Assembly (NCBI GenBank): GCA_944323615.1
Contig: CALUTG010000003.1
Span: 1 to 64,000, forward strand
Source of the DNA: Candidatus Gastranaerophilales bacterium
GTDB taxonomy: Bacteria; Cyanobacteriota; Vampirovibrionia; Gastranaerophilales; Gastranaerophilaceae
Reading direction: 5' to 3'
Length of the DNA stretch: 64,000 nt
Positions 14,575-49,915 of the stretch are shown one piece after another. Below the pieces are notes generated by a model. It did no database searches. It was not told the origin of the DNA and worked only from the letters and a program-made list of their open reading frames with translations. The position numbers and the translations under genes were made by a program. Within the stretch, counting starts at the first letter, position 1; each line of letters begins with the position of its first letter.

Positions 14575-14868
14575 GCTAAGCAGTGGAAGATTGAAAACTG
14601 AATACTATGTCATCCCGAACCTGATTCGGGATCTTATAAGTAAACAACGCTGACTTGGAGCTTACAATGTTTCGGATTTGTTTACAAGGATTCAAAGCCG
14701 GTAAGATGTTGAAACAAGTTCAGCATGACATAAAAACTGCAAGCCCTTGTGGCACTCTGCCGACGAGGAGGTGACTAAATGTCACGTCCGCGGAGAGGGG
14801 AGGTAGACGCCTCCACCGGCTAGGCAGCAGAAGATTGAAAATAGAATAAATTTGCAAGCCCTTGTGGC
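14575..14868. repeat. Duplicated 5' flank of the tRNA-Leu gene
   Basis: A 30-base stretch at 14575-14604 recurs at 14819-14848 with 25 identities. The 15 bases at 14739-14753, which include the first 11 bases of the tRNA, recur at 14854-14868. The 430-bp gap between 14425 and 14857 therefore looks like layered partial duplications around the tRNA, with no gene. Confidence 0.6.
14606..14732. repeat. Imperfect long inverted repeat with TCATCCCGAAC ends
   Basis: The arms are TATGTCATCCCGAAC (14606-14620) and GTTCAGCATGACATA (14718-14732), 13 of 15 complementary. A short stem TCCCGAA/TTCGGGA lies inside the left arm region. This type of GTCAT-ended palindrome is common as an intergenic mobile repeat in diverse bacteria. 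Confidence 0.6.
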
Positions 14869-14944
14869 GGAATCGGTAGACGCGTTGGACTTAAAATCCA
14901 ATCGGGGTTCACCCTCGGTGCCAGTTCAAGTCTGGCCAAGGGCA
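14858..14944 (+). tRNA. tRNA-Leu (anticodon UAA)
   Basis: An 87-base class II tRNA. The acceptor GCCCTTG pairs with CAAGGGC plus discriminator A. The anticodon stem TTGGA/TCCAA holds the loop CTTAAAA (anticodon TAA). A variable arm follows and the T arm contains GTTCAAGTC. CCA is not encoded. The 3' part of the gene is the prophage attachment core, so this copy is a host/phage hybrid restored to full sequence. Confidence 0.97.
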
Positions 14945-14986: not shown

Positions 14987-15028
14987 TGTGTAATCTGTGG
15001 GTAATTTTTCATTTGAATAAAATACTAA
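14987..15028. other. Candidate integrase arm sites, left
   Basis: A 23-base motif at 14987-15009 recurs in the same orientation at 49744-49766 with one mismatch. The 16 bases TTGAATAAAATACTAA at 15013-15028 recur exactly inverted at 49783-49798. Both pairs lie just inside the att cores, where integrase arm-binding sites are expected. Confidence 0.6.
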
Positions 15029-16029
15029 CAGTATGAATTTAATACTTCAATTGCTTCAAGTTTTCGTTTTGGTGTCGGATGCATGTATCTTTGAGTTGTT
15101 ACAATAGAGCTATGTGCTAATATCTCTTGCACTGTCCTTATATCAACCCCCTTTTCTACCAGTCTTGTTGCAACAGTATGTCTTAAATCGTGAAATCTGA
15201 AATTGTCTATCCCTGCTTTATTACAAGCATTGTTAAACCCCTCTGATATATCCCGATATGGTAAGCCAGTTTCTGGATTGGCAAAAACATACTCACTTAT
15301 TTTGGGTAATGAAATTAAAAGTTCCATTAACTTATCACTTATTGGAATCTTAATTACTTTATGCCCTTTATTTTGCTGTGCTAAAATTTCTATAAACCTA
15401 AAATCTAAATCTACTAACTCCCATCTTAGATTTAGTATATTAGATTTCCTTAAGCCTGTTTGTAATGCACAAATAACAATAGGCTTAAGATGTTCCGGTA
15501 AATATTTAAAAAGTTCTGCTTCTTCTTCTATTGTTAAATAGCGTATTTTATAATTATTTTCCTTTAACATTTTGACTGATTTCATAGGATTATAGCTTAC
15601 CAGCTGATTCTTTACTGCTAAATTAAAAATTGTTTTCAGACAAGCAAGATAACGATTAACATAAGCATTAGAATAATGTTCCAACATTTTTGCTTTGAAT
15701 TTCTCTATCCTATCAGGGGTTATTTTACTTACCGGAATATCCTTTCCCCATTCTTTGTAAAACAGATTAACTTTTGCTTCATCTCTTTTATAGTCCTTTT
15801 TGTTTGTTTTTGAATAATTAAGAAATATATTAGCAAGCTTTTTAAATAAAATAGTATCCTCAGATACCGTTAACCCGTTTTGCCTTTGTCGCGCCTTATA
15901 TCTTTCAGCATCTTCAAGTTCTTTTGCTTCCTGTTTGTTTTTTGCCCCATCTAACAGCTTATGAATACGCTCGCCCTTTACCATAAACTGGCAGTACCAT
16001 TTGCCGTTTGGTTTCTTATATACACTCAT
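15025..16029 (-). CDS. int: Tyrosine-family site-specific integrase
   Basis: This 334-residue phage integrase has an N-terminal arm-binding domain (MSVYKKPNGKWYCQF), a SAM-like core-binding domain (about 60-160) and a C-terminal catalytic domain. The catalytic residues are visible: Arg in ALQTGLRKSNIL, the HDLRHTVATRL box, His in LAHSSIVTTQRY and the nucleophile Tyr just after. It integrates and excises the prophage at tRNA-Leu. The ATG at 16029 is chosen because homology begins at MSVYKK; a longer frame to 16170 would run through the excisionase gene. It overlaps that gene by 14 bp. Confidence 0.93.
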   Translation of the reverse strand: MSVYKKPNGKWYCQFMVKGERIHKLLDGAKNKQEAKELEDAERYKARQRQNGLTVSEDTILFKKLANIFLNYSKTNKKDYKRDEAKVNLFYKEWGKDIPVSKITPDRIEKFKAKMLEHYSNAYVNRYLACLKTIFNLAVKNQLVSYNPMKSVKMLKENNYKIRYLTIEEEAELFKYLPEHLKPIVICALQTGLRKSNILNLRWELVDLDFRFIEILAQQNKGHKVIKIPISDKLMELLISLPKISEYVFANPETGLPYRDISEGFNNACNKAGIDNFRFHDLRHTVATRLVEKGVDIRTVQEILAHSSIVTTQRYMHPTPKRKLEAIEVLNSYC

Positions 16030-16192
16030 CACCACTAACCCATCTATCAAATTTATCAAGGCGGATTCTAACAGTATGCCCAATTCTGAATATAAGTTCA
16101 GATGGAATCTGCCCTCTATTAATCCATGTTCTAACAGTACTTTCCTTTGTCTGCAATAAATTTGCAGCATCCTTTATCGATATTAACTGCAT
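16016..16192 (-). CDS. xis: Excisionase-like HTH protein
   Basis: This 58-residue protein has a MerR/HTH_17-type winged helix: LISIKDAANLL, TKESTVRTWINRGQIPS, then VRIRLDKFDRWV. Such small proteins next to integrases act as excisionases, bending DNA to direct excision. It has a strong GGAGGT site eight bases before the ATG. Its stop lies inside the integrase start, so the two are coupled. The role is inferred from fold and position. Confidence 0.75.
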   Translation of the reverse strand: MQLISIKDAANLLQTKESTVRTWINRGQIPSELIFRIGHTVRIRLDKFDRWVSGDECI

Positions 16193-20474: not shown

Positions 20475-20909
20475 TTAATCTTCTTTAAATAAATTTCTCT
20501 GTATATTCTTTGAATCTTTCCACTGTTCGTAATTTTTAAGTTCTGTTATCCTAACCTCAATTCTGGGGTTGTACTTATCGTGATAAACTCTGGATCCGTC
20601 ATGTGCCGCTATAATATCCTTGTTATCATCAAGAACAAGTCCTGACTTGACCATAGCATCATCTATGGCATTGAGGAGGTTTGCCAAATCAACCCGCCTC
20701 CTCGCATCCATAAAAAAGAGACATTCAATATTAACCGGATAGGTTATAATTCCGGCGTGCAGCTTAACCATATTCAGGTAAGGCAGACAATCCTTTTCAA
20801 AGAATCTGTACTGCTTTGAAGGGAGAAGTCTCGGATACCCTCCCATCATAATAATTTGTCCATGATTTTTCTTTGATACCGGCTTTACCGGAATTACAAA
20901 CTCTATCAT
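20475..20909 (-). CDS. rusA: RusA-family Holliday-junction resolvase
   Basis: This 144-residue endonuclease cuts Holliday junctions in replicating phage DNA. The hallmark is RRRVDLANLLNAIDDAM (about residues 70-86) followed by GLVLDDNKDI, giving the cluster of acidic catalytic residues; the end PRIEVRITEL is also typical. GGAG precedes the ATG. It lies in the replication/recombination block with the exonuclease and annealing protein. Confidence 0.9.
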   Translation of the reverse strand: MIEFVIPVKPVSKKNHGQIIMMGGYPRLLPSKQYRFFEKDCLPYLNMVKLHAGIITYPVNIECLFFMDARRRVDLANLLNAIDDAMVKSGLVLDDNKDIIAAHDGSRVYHDKYNPRIEVRITELKNYEQWKDSKNIQRNLFKED

Positions 20910-20937: not shown

Positions 20938-20989
20938 CCCTCCCCTACCCCTCCCCATTGGGGGGGGATAAAAGAGTGATTAAGTCACT
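20938..20989. repeat. Dispersed palindromic repeat, divergent copy R4
   Basis: TCCCCTACCCCTCCCC, ATTG and a run of eight G form a C/G-tract palindrome, followed by GAGTGATTAAGTCACT, the same flank motif as R1 and R3. It lies between rusA and the next early gene, and the motif runs into that gene's last codons. Confidence 0.5.
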
Positions 20990-21456
20990 GTTAACTTCAT
21001 ATGTTTAGTTCTGGTATCTCCGTTCAAATACTTTTGAGCAAGCTCTAAAATCTCATACAAAAGCTTTTCATCCTTCCCGGAAACAGAGAAGGTCTTTTCT
21101 GAAAATTCTTCTTTGTAGATAGGTATTGAATTTACCGGAATATTGGTTAAAACATTCTTCTGCGGCTCATATTTAACTGCATAAGATACTTTCTCAAGCT
21201 TATCGCCTGAACCGTAAACAAACCTTAAAGCGTTCATTTTGATTTTACTCACATCATTTTTGAGCGCCGGAATAATTTCCACAAAGCTATTTACTGTTTC
21301 TTGAAACTTTTTTGAAAACTCTTCTGTAACCTTTTCTTTTCCTGTGAATGTTACGCTTGAAGCGTTCATATCAGTATTTTCTGAATACTCAATAATTGCA
21401 GTCTGGTCATTCTCAATTTTGATTTTTGAAATTAAAGCTTTTCTTTCTTCTGTCAT
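20980..21456 (-). CDS. Phage early protein, unknown
   Basis: This 158-residue protein is strand-rich at first, with a helical middle and end. No domain recognised. AGGAAAGGA precedes the ATG. It overlaps the replisome organiser by 44 bases and precedes rusA, so it is probably part of replication or recombination. It may be an accessory single-strand-binding or modifying factor, but nothing in the sequence proves it. Confidence 0.6.
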   Translation of the reverse strand: MTEERKALISKIKIENDQTAIIEYSENTDMNASSVTFTGKEKVTEEFSKKFQETVNSFVEIIPALKNDVSKIKMNALRFVYGSGDKLEKVSYAVKYEPQKNVLTNIPVNSIPIYKEEFSEKTFSVSGKDEKLLYEILELAQKYLNGDTRTKHMKLTVT

Positions 21457-22156
21457 TTTTAATCCTTTCCTGAATCTGTTTTATTTTCTCTTTTTCTTCC
21501 GGAGTTTCTACGCACTCCTCTTCTTTCTGTTTAGCTTTATTCTTGCTTTCCTCCTCCTTTTTCTTTTGTCTTTCCTGCCATTGTTTAGCTTTGTTCAGCT
21601 TGTTCTCTAAATCCCCGTTTTTAGATAGCGTGCTTATATAAGCATCAATATCCTCAATTGGGGTTTTTCGTTTTTGCTTTAAAAGATATTTTTCTAAAAT
21701 TTCTCTCTCGCTTATAGAGAGAGATAATTTATTATCTCTCTCTTTCTTTATATTCTTTATAGTGTTGTTGTTTGACCCCCCTATTTGTTTGTTGCAACCC
21801 CCTGGGGTTGGTTTGTTGTTTGGGGGAGTTTTTTGCTTGTTGTTTGTTTGGTATAAATCGTAGTTTTTTACTGTTATTATTGAATATCGGTTTGTTGTTT
21901 GTATGTTGATTTCGTTTGTTGTTTGTAATTTCTTTAGTGCGTTTCTCGTTTGTTGCAAGGTCAATCCGTTAAGCATAGCAAGCTTTTCAATGCTAGTCGG
22001 AAATTGTCCGCGCTTTAGTAATTGCCCTTGCCAGTTTTCATCTTTAAAATTCGCTTCCAGCAGACAATGTAAAAAAATAATTTTTACAGTAGGATAGTCG
22101 TACCATTCCCATTCTTGAAACTTCTTGTAAAGTAAAATCCAGCCGTCTTTACGCAT
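21413..22156 (-). CDS. Phage replisome organiser / replication initiation protein
   Basis: This 247-residue protein has an N-terminal winged helix of the phage replisome-organiser (DnaD-like) type: GWILLYKKFQEWEWYDYP, then LKRGQFPTSIEKLAMLNGLTLQQTRNALKKL. A low-complexity Asn/Gln linker (about 115-150) and a lysine/glutamate-rich C-terminal coil follow. Such proteins bind the phage origin and recruit host DnaB. The linker-coding DNA holds a cluster of direct repeats that may be the origin. GGAGG lies four bases before the ATG. Confidence 0.8.
   Translation of the reverse strand: MRKDGWILLYKKFQEWEWYDYPTVKIIFLHCLLEANFKDENWQGQLLKRGQFPTSIEKLAMLNGLTLQQTRNALKKLQTTNEINIQTTNRYSIITVKNYDLYQTNNKQKTPPNNKPTPGGCNKQIGGSNNNTIKNIKKERDNKLSLSISEREILEKYLLKQKRKTPIEDIDAYISTLSKNGDLENKLNKAKQWQERQKKKEEESKNKAKQKEEECVETPEEKEKIKQIQERIKNDRRKKSFNFKNQN
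21716..21958. other. Candidate phage replication origin: iteron cluster and inverted repeats
   Basis: Seven copies of GTTTGTTGTTTG or GTTTGTTGCAA-like units lie near 21762, 21785, 21811, 21835, 21890, 21914 and 21947. A 12-bp perfect inverted repeat (21716-21727 with 21732-21743) and a 7-bp one, CAACCCC/GGGGTTG, at 21795-21810 sit among them. All are within the initiator gene, as in lambda O. Confidence 0.6.
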
Positions 22157-22197: not shown

Positions 22198-23007
22198 TTA
22201 ATTAAAAACAATCAAATCATCAGGCAAAATCAATTTCTCAAGCTTCTTAGTTGCCCTGCAGTAATCACATACTCCGCAGCGGCGGGGTTCTTCGTTGTAA
22301 TTCTTGACATCAATTATTCTTTGCATTTTGAATAATAGCTGATTTCTTTGGAATTCAAGCTGTTCATTCGGAATCAAAATACAATCAATGTCCGGATAAT
22401 CCTGTTTATCTACAGCAGCTATTATACAGTCCAGAACCTCACCTGTATTTTGTCTTACAATTTCCTGATATATTCCAAGCTGCAGATCATAGCCCCATTT
22501 TTCTATAAAACTCTGCCTGAATCCGTTTTTATAAGATATATCCCGAAGTTTTTGCACTACTTTCAAATCTACAATGGCTTGGTGCGGTATGTAGCTGTCC
22601 ATTTTTATTTTCCACTGGACTCCCAGAAATTCACCTGTCATAATGACTTGCTTTTCTCCGGACATGCAGTTCATAAACAGCTCTTCATTTTCTACTCTCC
22701 GGATTATGCTTTCAGCTTTTACATAATCAGATTTTAAACTGCCGTCTTTTTTAAAGAGTTCAGGAGTTTTTGATTTGAACTCCTCAAGAGTTCCTTCAAA
22801 ATAGCTGTCAACGTATGAACCGATTAACATCGGGGTAGTAGGTTCTTCAACCCACTCCCCGTTAATCTTTGCCATTGCGTAAGCTTCGCATTTAAGGAAG
22901 TCTTTAACCTGACTTACGCTAAAATAACGCTGATTGGCTTCTTTTGAGTAGTAATTCTCATTTGTTAACTTAAACCGTTTCTTCTTCGATGTTTTCGTAG
23001 TACTCAT
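22198..23007 (-). CDS. PD-(D/E)XK exonuclease, RecE/DUF3799-like
   Basis: This 269-residue nuclease is likely the 5'-3' exonuclease that feeds phage recombination. The core is visible as MTGEFLGVQWKIKMDSYIP with AIVDLKVV (the D..(E/D)xK metal site at about residues 135-152), an upstream SVSQVKDFLKCE helix, and a C-terminal CGVCDYCR cluster, like the Cys motif of Cas4/AddB-type nucleases. It overlaps the annealing-protein candidate by 38 bp, the usual exonuclease/annealase pairing. Confidence 0.8.
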   Translation of the reverse strand: MSTTKTSKKKRFKLTNENYYSKEANQRYFSVSQVKDFLKCEAYAMAKINGEWVEEPTTPMLIGSYVDSYFEGTLEEFKSKTPELFKKDGSLKSDYVKAESIIRRVENEELFMNCMSGEKQVIMTGEFLGVQWKIKMDSYIPHQAIVDLKVVQKLRDISYKNGFRQSFIEKWGYDLQLGIYQEIVRQNTGEVLDCIIAAVDKQDYPDIDCILIPNEQLEFQRNQLLFKMQRIIDVKNYNEEPRRCGVCDYCRATKKLEKLILPDDLIVFN

Positions 23008-23884
23008 TTGCCATTGCCTCTAATTCCGGAGATACTTCCATCTCATCATCTTTTTTAATATTCTTTTTGGTTGTAAGCTTTTTCTCTGCGTTGTCTTTTT
23101 GCTGTTCAGCTGCGGAAGGTATATCAAAGTATTGTTCTATCGGTGCAAAATTATTCTTGATAGAGTTGTAAATACTGCCCAAATCAACAATATTTTTAGG
23201 TATGAAATTGTCACATTTAGTACCTACACGCTTTTCAATCATTTCTTTGGTTACCCCTAAGGATTCAAACTTATCCAGCATGTCTGCTACTCGTTCTTTA
23301 AGCGGTTTATCATTTGAACCTATTAATGTTTTTTCACAGGCATTAAGGAAATCTTCCACAACATCACCCGGAAGGATTTCAAGAAGTACGGCTCTTTTTC
23401 TTCTTGCCCCGTCGTTAGCGATTCTTTCGTATATATCCCTCGGGTCAGTTAAAAGAGTGTTTCCGCCGTTCTTTGTATACCTTGTATGCGGAACTTTGAA
23501 AATTCTTTCCGCTCTTACGTTGCTTTCTAAATCCCAGGCATAAGCCATAACTTCGGAAGTGTGTTCAATAGGGTTTGAGCTTAGTTCTTTTACACCATAA
23601 GAAATATTTCCCCAATATTTAGCTATGGTTTCGGCAGCTCTTACGGAAGGCCCTTTGATTTGCTGTCCGCCTCTCGGGTAACAATATGTAGCCTTTTCGG
23701 CCAAGGTCATTCTTTTGGCTGCTTCCATAATCTTTTTAAAACTTTGCTGTTCATCTCTCGGAAACTGTCGAGCCATAAAGATAGCTCCCTGAACCTCTTG
23801 AACAGCTCTTGTTTTTTCAATCTCCTGTCCGACATTAGGGAAGCTTGTAACATTTGCTCTGTCCTGTTCTGCTAAATAGTTCAT
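22970..23884 (-). CDS. Probable phage recombination (ssDNA-annealing) protein
   Basis: This 304-residue protein belongs to a family I know only as conserved phage proteins: GAIFMARQFPRDEQQSFKKI, then ATYCYPRGGQQIKGPSVRAAE, AYAWDLESNVRAER, LTDPRDIYERIANDGARRKR, and LEILPGDVVE. It does not look like RecT, Erf, Rad52 or Sak4. Its direct coupling to an exonuclease, in the slot held by annealases in other phages, is the evidence for role. The C-terminus is a charged linker with an acidic tail, as in proteins that bind SSB partners. Confidence 0.6.
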   Translation of the reverse strand: MNYLAEQDRANVTSFPNVGQEIEKTRAVQEVQGAIFMARQFPRDEQQSFKKIMEAAKRMTLAEKATYCYPRGGQQIKGPSVRAAETIAKYWGNISYGVKELSSNPIEHTSEVMAYAWDLESNVRAERIFKVPHTRYTKNGGNTLLTDPRDIYERIANDGARRKRAVLLEILPGDVVEDFLNACEKTLIGSNDKPLKERVADMLDKFESLGVTKEMIEKRVGTKCDNFIPKNIVDLGSIYNSIKNNFAPIEQYFDIPSAAEQQKDNAEKKLTTKKNIKKDDEMEVSPELEAMANEYYENIEEETV

Positions 23885-27162: not shown

Positions 27163-27267
27163 AAATTTGTGTTAAAATAATTTTATGAGAGATATGTGAG
27201 GGTAGAAAAAGACATGAAAAGATGTTATAATGATTCATGCAATGTAAATAATATGAGGTGTAATATT

Positions 27268-27723
27268 ATGTACAAAGCAACTGAAATCGCTGATTATATT
27301 TTATGCATTGCCCAAGAAAACGGCGACTTAATCACAAATCTTAAATTACAAAAGCTTCTTTATTATGCACAAGCCTGGTTTTTGGTAAATAACAATAACG
27401 AACGGCTTTTTAGCGATGAAATAGAAGCTTGGCAATATGGTCCGGTTATACCTGCAGTTTATAATAAATATCAAAAATTCGGACGTAGCCCCATTGTTAT
27501 TGACTGTGATATAGAGAATGATTTTAATAATATAAATGATTGTACAAAAGAATATCTAAGAGAATTTTGTCAATACTTTTTCAGATTTTCTGCAACAGAT
27601 TTAGTAAGTATGACACACCAAGAAAAACCTTGGCTGGAGGCTGTAGAACAAGGACTAAATACTCCTATTAATACAGATACAATGTACAATTTTTATTCAG
27701 AAATGTTAGAAGATGAAAAATAA
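27268..27723 (+). CDS. Panacea (DUF4065, SocA-like) antitoxin
   Basis: This 151-residue protein matches the Panacea domain: ATEIADYILCIAQENGD, LTNLKLQKLLYYAQAWFL, FSDEIEAWQYGPVIPAVYNKY and a DLVSMTHQEKPWLEA end. Panacea proteins are antitoxins that pair with many unrelated toxins, often on phages. The ATG at 27268 follows GAGGTG; the longer frame from 27196 is not supported. Its stop overlaps the next gene by 11 bases, so the two are translationally coupled, as in toxin-antitoxin pairs. Confidence 0.88.
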   Translation: MYKATEIADYILCIAQENGDLITNLKLQKLLYYAQAWFLVNNNNERLFSDEIEAWQYGPVIPAVYNKYQKFGRSPIVIDCDIENDFNNINDCTKEYLREFCQYFFRFSATDLVSMTHQEKPWLEAVEQGLNTPINTDTMYNFYSEMLEDEK

Positions 27724-28132
27724 ATTTTCTTTTAGTACTAATTCTGCGCCAATGCAAGTTAGTATTAAAGCTGGTAAACCTCAATATTATAAATTGAAAC
27801 CTATATTTTCTTTTGAATACTATATCTGTTCAGATAGGTATTTTTCAAGAGAGCATTCAAATGAAAGGAGAAATTCTCTCTATAATTTCTTGCAAAATAT
27901 AAAGAATTTTTCTGCTATAACGTGGGGAGAAATGAAGGAAAACCCCAAAGTATATCATTTCCATGAATTTATAGAAAATGTATCTGTATTAAATTCATAT
28001 ACAGATAGGGATATGGTACAATTTAAAATTCCTGGGCAAAAGCAAGGTCGTTTTATTGGCTTTTTTGATAATAATAACGTGTTTAATGTCTTGCTATATG
28101 ATTCACAACATCAAGCAGACCCAAGAAAATGA
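27713..28132 (+). CDS. Putative toxin partner of the Panacea protein
   Basis: This 139-residue protein directly follows and overlaps the Panacea antitoxin. It is rich in aromatic and basic residues, with a helical middle (RRNSLYNFLQNIKNF) and a strand-rich end (GRFIGFFDNNNVFNVLLYDSQHQ). The last part resembles the closing strands of RelE-type ribonucleases, but no catalytic set can be confirmed. No recognised family. Toxin role is inferred from position alone. Confidence 0.55.
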   Translation: MKNKFSFSTNSAPMQVSIKAGKPQYYKLKPIFSFEYYICSDRYFSREHSNERRNSLYNFLQNIKNFSAITWGEMKENPKVYHFHEFIENVSVLNSYTDRDMVQFKIPGQKQGRFIGFFDNNNVFNVLLYDSQHQADPRK

Positions 28133-49855: not shown

Positions 49856-49915
49856 GACTTAAAATCCAATCGGGGTTCACCCTCGGTGCCAGTTCAAGTC
49901 TGGCCAAGGGCAAAT
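49856..49915. other. attR, 60-bp attachment core
   Basis: Identical to 14888-14947. This is the residual 3' part of the original host tRNA-Leu gene. The bases before it (ATTA) are phage DNA and do not continue the tRNA. Confidence 0.93.

Follow-up and report, generated by a model that had tools for sequence, protein, structure and literature searches.

A putative single-strand annealing protein of the phrog_3657 family encoded beside a DUF3799 nuclease in a Gastranaerophilales prophage

According to the part of PMC8093625 consulted here, recombineering has to date relied only on RecT/Red beta proteins accompanied by an exonuclease of their own, YqaJ and DUF3799 nucleases often lie next to recT in phages of Firmicutes, and a C-terminal HTH is common to several families of single-strand annealing proteins (SSAPs). 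One such pair is described in the consulted text of PMC4595204, where the DUF3799 protein Lp_0642 and the RecT-type Lp_0641 support dsDNA recombineering; recombination there required the SSAP-exonuclease pair, lp_0642 overlaps lp_0641 by 77 nt, and the Gam-like lp_0640 adjoins lp_0641-42. The fold of the superfamily to which RecT, Rad52 and Erf belong is given in the available part of PMC9870868 as helix 1, a β-hairpin, helix 2, an antiparallel three-stranded sheet and helix 3 packed on the sheet.

The arrangement of lp_0641-42 recurs in the window, i.e. the whole stretch of 64,000 nucleotides that was analysed (contig CALUTG010000003.1 of Candidatus Gastranaerophilales bacterium), where the gene for a 304-aa protein overlaps the gene for a DUF3799 nuclease. 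The relevant features, in window coordinates, are the following:

22970..23884, minus strand: putative single-strand annealing protein of the phrog_3657 family, 304 aa (translation, PHROG profile, AF2 model, RAD52 Z 6.6)
23309..23788, minus strand: predicted Rad52-type core, residues 33-192 (AF2 model and structural realignment; residues converted to window coordinates)
23123..23323, minus strand: C-terminal small helical (HTH-like) domain, residues 188-254 (separate model, pLDDT 75.7)
22973..23053, minus strand: C-terminal tail, residues 278-304, also present in the RecT-like protein that occupies this slot in the related genome G028
22198..23007, minus strand: DUF3799/PF12684 PD-(D/E)XK nuclease, 269 aa (Pfam, PHROG), with a 38-nt overlap with the putative annealase gene
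21413..22156, minus strand: DnaD-like helicase loader/replisome organiser (phrog_2514, E 6e-23)
20983-21456, minus strand: 158-aa protein, its gene flanked by those of the DnaD-like protein and RusA (PHROG and Pfam at chance level at best, E 0.019)
20475..20909, minus strand: RusA-like Holliday junction resolvase (PF05866, E 3.5e-6)
15025..16170, minus strand: tyrosine integrase (PF00589, E 1.5e-33)
14858..14944, plus strand: tRNA-Leu gene, the 3′ part of which (from 14888) is repeated at 49856

Transcription runs from the putative annealase gene through the DUF3799 nuclease, the DnaD-like protein and the 158-aa protein to RusA, the last of which had been rightly placed nearby in the sequence-only reading of this DNA. 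The repeated 3′ part of the tRNA-Leu gene suggests prophage attachment sites about 35 kb apart, and by this repeat the prophage would extend from 14858 to 49912, with a terminase and a P22-like portal further along. On the plus strand of the same prophage, a Panacea-domain (SocA-like) gene (PF13274, E 4e-20) is followed by a 139-aa gene (27196-28132), and the two probably form a Panacea-type toxin-antitoxin pair.

The gene for the 304-aa protein starts with ATG, and the plus-strand frame across the same interval is riddled with stop codons; the coordinates and the length given in the sequence-only reading are correct, while the strand had to be corrected to minus. The PHROG profile search identified phrog_3657, a family that carries no functional label, over residues 16-278 (E 1.4e-94), and this match together with the many relatives led us to dismiss a chance open reading frame. 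No family in Pfam or NCBIfam covers the protein: its sole Pfam row at E <= 1 is at chance level (0.015), and RecT (PF03837), Erf (PF04404), Sak/DUF1071 (PF06378), Rad52_Rad22 (PF04098) and the Pfam families of Sak4 and gp2.5 gave no match at E <= 1. Pfam searches over the 125 aligned members described below returned chance-level families only among the 25 listed of 80, PF03837 not being among those 25, and sequence searches of the PDB yielded no match for the 125-member profile and three chance-level rows for the single protein. The hhalign comparison of phrog_3657 with alignments of RecT, RecT-like, Erf and Sak proteins from the fetched loci gave no signal, the control of RecT against RecT-like, which Pfam places in one family, being silent too. 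The earlier remark that the protein is unlike RecT, Erf, Rad52, Sak4 and gp2.5 thus holds for the sequence and fails for the predicted fold, which is Rad52/RecT-like. The strong internal motifs quoted at that time are all present, with YPRGGQQIKGPS at residues 69-80, TDPRDIYERIANDGARRKR at residues 146-164 and LPGDVVE at residues 171-177, and all three fall inside stretches conserved among the 125 aligned members.

Relatives of the 304-aa protein were found in at least 80 phage records (hosts include Acinetobacter, Vibrio, Pseudomonas, Bordetella, Gordonia and Mycobacterium), in at least 515 of 600 candidate IMG/VR stretches and in 198 of 250 candidate genome stretches, which include many Firmicutes; the best among the genome stretches (L099) reaches 85% identity over its best segment. 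The alignment used throughout (A2) combines the protein with 124 relatives that are 32-78% identical to it, distant relatives being under-sampled because the best 80 per scan were taken. Fifteen columns of A2 are invariant, and six of them (R149, D150, E153, A156, R161 and R164) lie in the predicted helix 148-170, an enrichment with a hypergeometric value of 0.001 over residues 16-253.

Many relatives are named 'hypothetical protein' in the phage records. The names 'RecT-like ssDNA binding', 'putative RecT' or 'ssDNA binding' are carried by 11 of 60 relatives listed (15 of 60 in a partly overlapping list) and are confined, among the relatives listed, to phages of Mycobacterium and Gordonia; the relative in Yersinia phage fHe-Yen8-01 is labelled 'particle associated protein'. 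The family had been called unassigned, which is right inasmuch as no curated family covers it and needs qualification inasmuch as actinobacteriophage records already name a part of it 'RecT-like'. No mention of 'phrog_3657' was found in the papers searched, nor was a study of this family found in the consulted parts of papers on new SSAP families, mycobacteriophage RecT-like proteins and DUF3799; the thousands of unannotated SSAP candidates reported by a structural screen (PMC11783212, consulted in part) could include it. The closest phage record among those listed is PP511318.1 (L382, 'Dulem virus 31', a 35.8-kb genome), which encodes CI, an exonuclease and a replisome organiser and yet is filed under Microviridae, a taxonomy that looks wrong.

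The next gene downstream in the direction of transcription encodes the 269-aa nuclease, which matches PF12684/DUF3799 over the entire profile (1-233/233, E 2e-76, 257 bits with the cut-off at 26), as well as the PHROG families 1227, 'exonuclease' (E 3e-80), and, more weakly, 412, 'exonuclease VIII' (E 2.5e-18). The sequence-only reading had placed the 304-aa protein directly before, and overlapping, a RecE-like exonuclease; position and overlap are confirmed, and in view of these matches the term 'RecE-like' is fair in a loose sense, the family itself being DUF3799. Of 132 aligned members of this family, 127 keep an N-terminal Cys at residue 40, and 123 of 130 full-length proteins have a C-terminal C-x2-C-x2-C. 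Cas4 and AddB are iron-sulphur nucleases with a similar Cys pattern; lambda Exo and RecE are not known to have one.

The pairing with an exonuclease turned out to be general. In 79 of the 124 non-redundant relatives a DUF3799 gene follows directly downstream, overlapping or abutting in 72 of these 79 (median gap -35 nt); it lies at most two genes away in 88 and nine genes away in one. YqaJ, whose identification rests on Pfam counts (15 of 93 neighbours), occurs in none of the DUF3799 loci and is at most two genes away in 15 of the 34 relatives that lack DUF3799, 13 times immediately upstream. One or the other nuclease is thus found within two genes of 103 of the 124 relatives, while neither was found nearby in 19, where some contigs end close by. 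The last residues of one relative (L065:3044-3964) match the C terminus of the DUF3799 nuclease; a fusion of the two proteins was considered and rejected, the better explanation being an in-frame deletion that joined the gene to the last residues of the nuclease.

The AlphaFold2 (AF2) model of the 304-aa protein, obtained from A2 (125 sequences), has a pLDDT of 90.9 and a pTM of 0.79. It comprises helices 18-40 and 45-56, a β-hairpin (66-79), a helix (81-91), three strands (94-104, 109-118 and 123-132) and a helix (148-170), so that all five elements of the Rad52/RecT/Erf fold are found in order, packing and strand direction being judged by the order of elements and the short turns rather than by coordinates. 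The VIA realignment against the PDB has RAD52 on top (8rjw, Z 6.6, 140 aligned residues, rmsd 5.5, with 6-10% identity in the RAD52 rows), and 12 of the 50 rows are annealases of five kinds, the others being Mgm101 (Z 5.3), 80alpha Sak (5.2), Red beta (5.2) and RecT (7UB2, 4.3); every Z is below 8, a range that the tool terms common, LptE (Z 6.1) is tied with RAD52, and LptE and actin-capping rows interleave with the annealases. The Foldseek search of the PDB gave no match at E <= 0.001, the rows, at E >= 0.09, being those of porphobilinogen deaminase, relaxases and other proteins, with no annealase among the 50 listed. In BFVD the first five matches resemble the phrog_3657 family itself (20-34% identity), and all 17 functionally named rows among ranks 6-50 are Erf, Rad52, RecT or recombination/annealing proteins, these matches beyond the family having E-values of 0.003-0.06 and low TM. 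The LptE identity was set aside, as the N terminus of the translated protein has no hydrophobic or lipoprotein leader and the gene lies within a recombination operon. The structure comparison proposed earlier as a check points to a Rad52-superfamily annealase fold rather than an unrelated one, LptE being tied in Z. The predicted fold is suggestive of such an annealase, and by analogy with RAD52 the helix 148-170 would line the DNA groove; the tie with LptE and the lack of a Foldseek match in the PDB at E <= 0.001 keep the fold from being decisive by itself. For the C-terminal domain the best match of the separate model in the PDB is a POU domain (Z 5.2), followed by the C-terminal domain of 80alpha Sak (Z 4.3), which is suggestive at most because the POU domain scores higher.

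Could the 304-aa protein be a highly diverged member of the RecT family (PF03837)? Such a protein would still be an annealase, so that this explanation overlaps with the one preferred below, and it agrees with the slot and the exonucleases, which are those of RecT in Firmicutes (DUF3799 and YqaJ, as far as the consulted part of PMC8093625 goes), with the relatives named 'RecT-like' or 'putative RecT' and with the presence of 7UB2 in the VIA list. We consider it rather unlikely, given that PF03837 is not matched by the protein at E <= 1 and is not among the 25 families most matched by the 125 members, and that RAD52 outscores RecT in the structural list.

The slot beside DUF3799 in related genomes provides a further line of evidence. 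PF12684 was found at nine places in eight of 97 related genomes, and the counts below take eight of them, leaving out G066 (weak). A phrog_3657 gene adjoins PF12684 at four of the nine places (G000, G011 and G064 twice) and a RecT-type gene at three (G052, 96.9 bits; G028, 37.5 bits; G073, 16.4 bits, sub-threshold), while at one (G074) Mgm101 lies three open frames upstream of the nuclease (E 2.8e-43); in G073 and at one place in G064 (C140) the nuclease precedes its partner gene. Among G000 and the RecT-bearing genomes G052 and G028, nuclease identity is 51-55%. When the other G064 locus (C55) is set against G052, homology is seen upstream, in the SbcC-like proteins (46.6% over 204 aa), and downstream, in the nucleases (60.3% over 121 aa), and the genes between them, phrog_3657 and RecT respectively, show no significant similarity; in G052 the SbcC-like gene is separated from RecT by an extra gene for 206 aa. 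Within the host order, one phrog_3657 operon and one RecT operon each have an SbcC/SMC-like gene ahead of the slot (L196:205-1452, L184:2895-3506), 'SbcC-like' being our reading of the sequence, for which the Pfam row is at chance level. RecT, Erf and Sak had no match in the genomes with strong phrog_3657 matches (G000, G011, G064), which is weak evidence alone because these families are rare (8, 6 and 2 of 97 related genomes). Searches of the host genome for RecT, Erf, Sak and Rad52 were negative, the Sak4 family gave sub-threshold matches only, outside the window, and gp2.5 gave no match, with a control that was also silent. Of 50 viral contigs that carry phrog_3657, a single one (84 kb) also has RecT and none has Erf; phrog_3657 was found in 0 of 40 contigs with Erf, again with a silent control.

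The 304-aa protein and the RecT-like protein of G028 can be aligned over their last 21 residues only, with 57% identity (pairwise E 1.6e-5), and both tails end just over the start of their nuclease genes, which are homologous. The score of this tail match is 72, compared with a maximum of 41 among the 1995 other natural tails, and exceeds those of all 5000 shuffles. A tblastn search of phage records with the tail alone found nothing and nearer relatives in the host order carry a somewhat different tail, from which we conclude that only a few lineages have the shared tail. The simplest reading of these sequences is that the core was replaced while the tail and the nuclease were kept, in which case the tail may serve the nuclease.

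Predicted fold, exonuclease pairing, replacement in the slot by known annealases and the shared tail together uphold the annealase reading, with the gene context weighing more than the fold. Thus the 304-aa protein is very probably a phage SSAP of the Rad52/RecT/Erf superfamily, contained in phrog_3657 and not labelled as such by the curated libraries. The original proposal of an annealase paired with an exonuclease is supported by the predicted fold, by the generality of the pairing and by RecT and Mgm101 in the slot.

Alternatively, the protein might be a non-annealing accessory of the DUF3799 nuclease that binds ssDNA or loads ends (SSB-like or a processivity factor), as the tight gene overlap and the relatives annotated plainly as 'ssDNA binding protein' would allow; this is improbable, considering that the predicted fold is Rad52-like and not an OB fold, that RecT or Mgm101 replaces phrog_3657 in the slot and that recombination needed an SSAP-exonuclease pair in the system of PMC4595204 (as described in the consulted text). 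Still harder to accept is a virion protein, or another unrelated one, lying by chance in a recombination operon and sharing a common α/β arrangement with LptE: the LptE and actin-capping rows among the annealases and the one relative called 'particle associated' speak for it, while the conserved pairing with two alternative exonuclease families, the swap with RecT, the N terminus devoid of a hydrophobic leader and the functionally named BFVD ranks 6-50, all of them recombination proteins, speak against it. A Gam-like inhibitor of host nucleases, for which one can cite the occurrence of Gam-like genes in such operons (lp_0640 beside lp_0641-42 in the consulted part of PMC4595204), can practically be dismissed, as the predicted fold is that of annealases, RecT or Mgm101 stands in place of phrog_3657 and not beside it, and the host genome searches for RecT, Erf, Sak and Rad52 revealed no other candidate annealase.

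If the 304-aa protein is an annealase, the overlapping DUF3799 nuclease would resect the ends of phage DNA and the putative annealase would multimerise on the single strand so exposed and hold the strand by its backbone in a basic groove formed by the β-hairpin, the three-stranded sheet and the helix with invariant arginines (148-170), with the bases facing outward. A complementary strand would then be captured, so that phage genomes are repaired or circularised, and RusA could resolve the products of annealing. The C-terminal helical domain and the acidic tail would probably dock the exonuclease or SSB. DNA binding, annealing, multimerisation and docking are all activities that we infer for the phrog_3657 protein. 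A broader proposal, to which we give about an even chance, is that phrog_3657 constitutes a separate exonuclease-paired family of Rad52-superfamily annealases, carried by phages whose hosts are Gram-positive, Gram-negative or actinobacterial, and that SSAP surveys overlooked it for lack of a Pfam model. On this view the core is flanked by conserved recombination genes and can be exchanged for RecT or Mgm101, with a nuclease-docking tail that can outlast the swap. If true, a second exonuclease-paired family would offer many new native annealase-exonuclease pairs to test, a conserved phage gene of 'unknown function' would gain a name, and the tail and core swaps would make the docking of the exonuclease directly testable.

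Among the known systems, the mycobacteriophage and Gordonia phage proteins called 'RecT-like ssDNA binding protein' or 'putative RecT' (Sparky gp57, Mutzi gp54 and those of M. abscessus prophages) belong to the phrog_3657 family by tblastn (34-39% identity), the name being an annotation label only; in Sparky and Mutzi the gene annotated as 'RecE' and 'exonuclease VIII', respectively, lies directly upstream rather than downstream. The 80alpha Sak protein (PDB 8qe9) has the same two-domain plan, its chain residues 4-130 matching the core (Z 5.2) and 138-203 the C-terminal domain (Z 4.3), with Z-scores that are low and, for a small helical domain, commonly reached by chance. Rad52 and Mgm101 provide the best rows of the structural comparison (Z 6.6 over 140 residues for RAD52, 5.3 for Mgm101) and the same order of five elements, and a single related genome (G074) has Mgm101 upstream of its nuclease; Rad52 differs in sequence, with 6-10% identity in its rows and no PF04098 match. 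RecT/Red beta (PF03837; RecET, Red, Lp_0641-42) has no detectable similarity in the core sequence and its Pfam family is not matched by the 304-aa protein, yet it shares with the latter the slot beside, and overlapping, a PD-(D/E)XK exonuclease (DUF3799 or YqaJ), the predicted core fold and, in one related host, the C-terminal tail.
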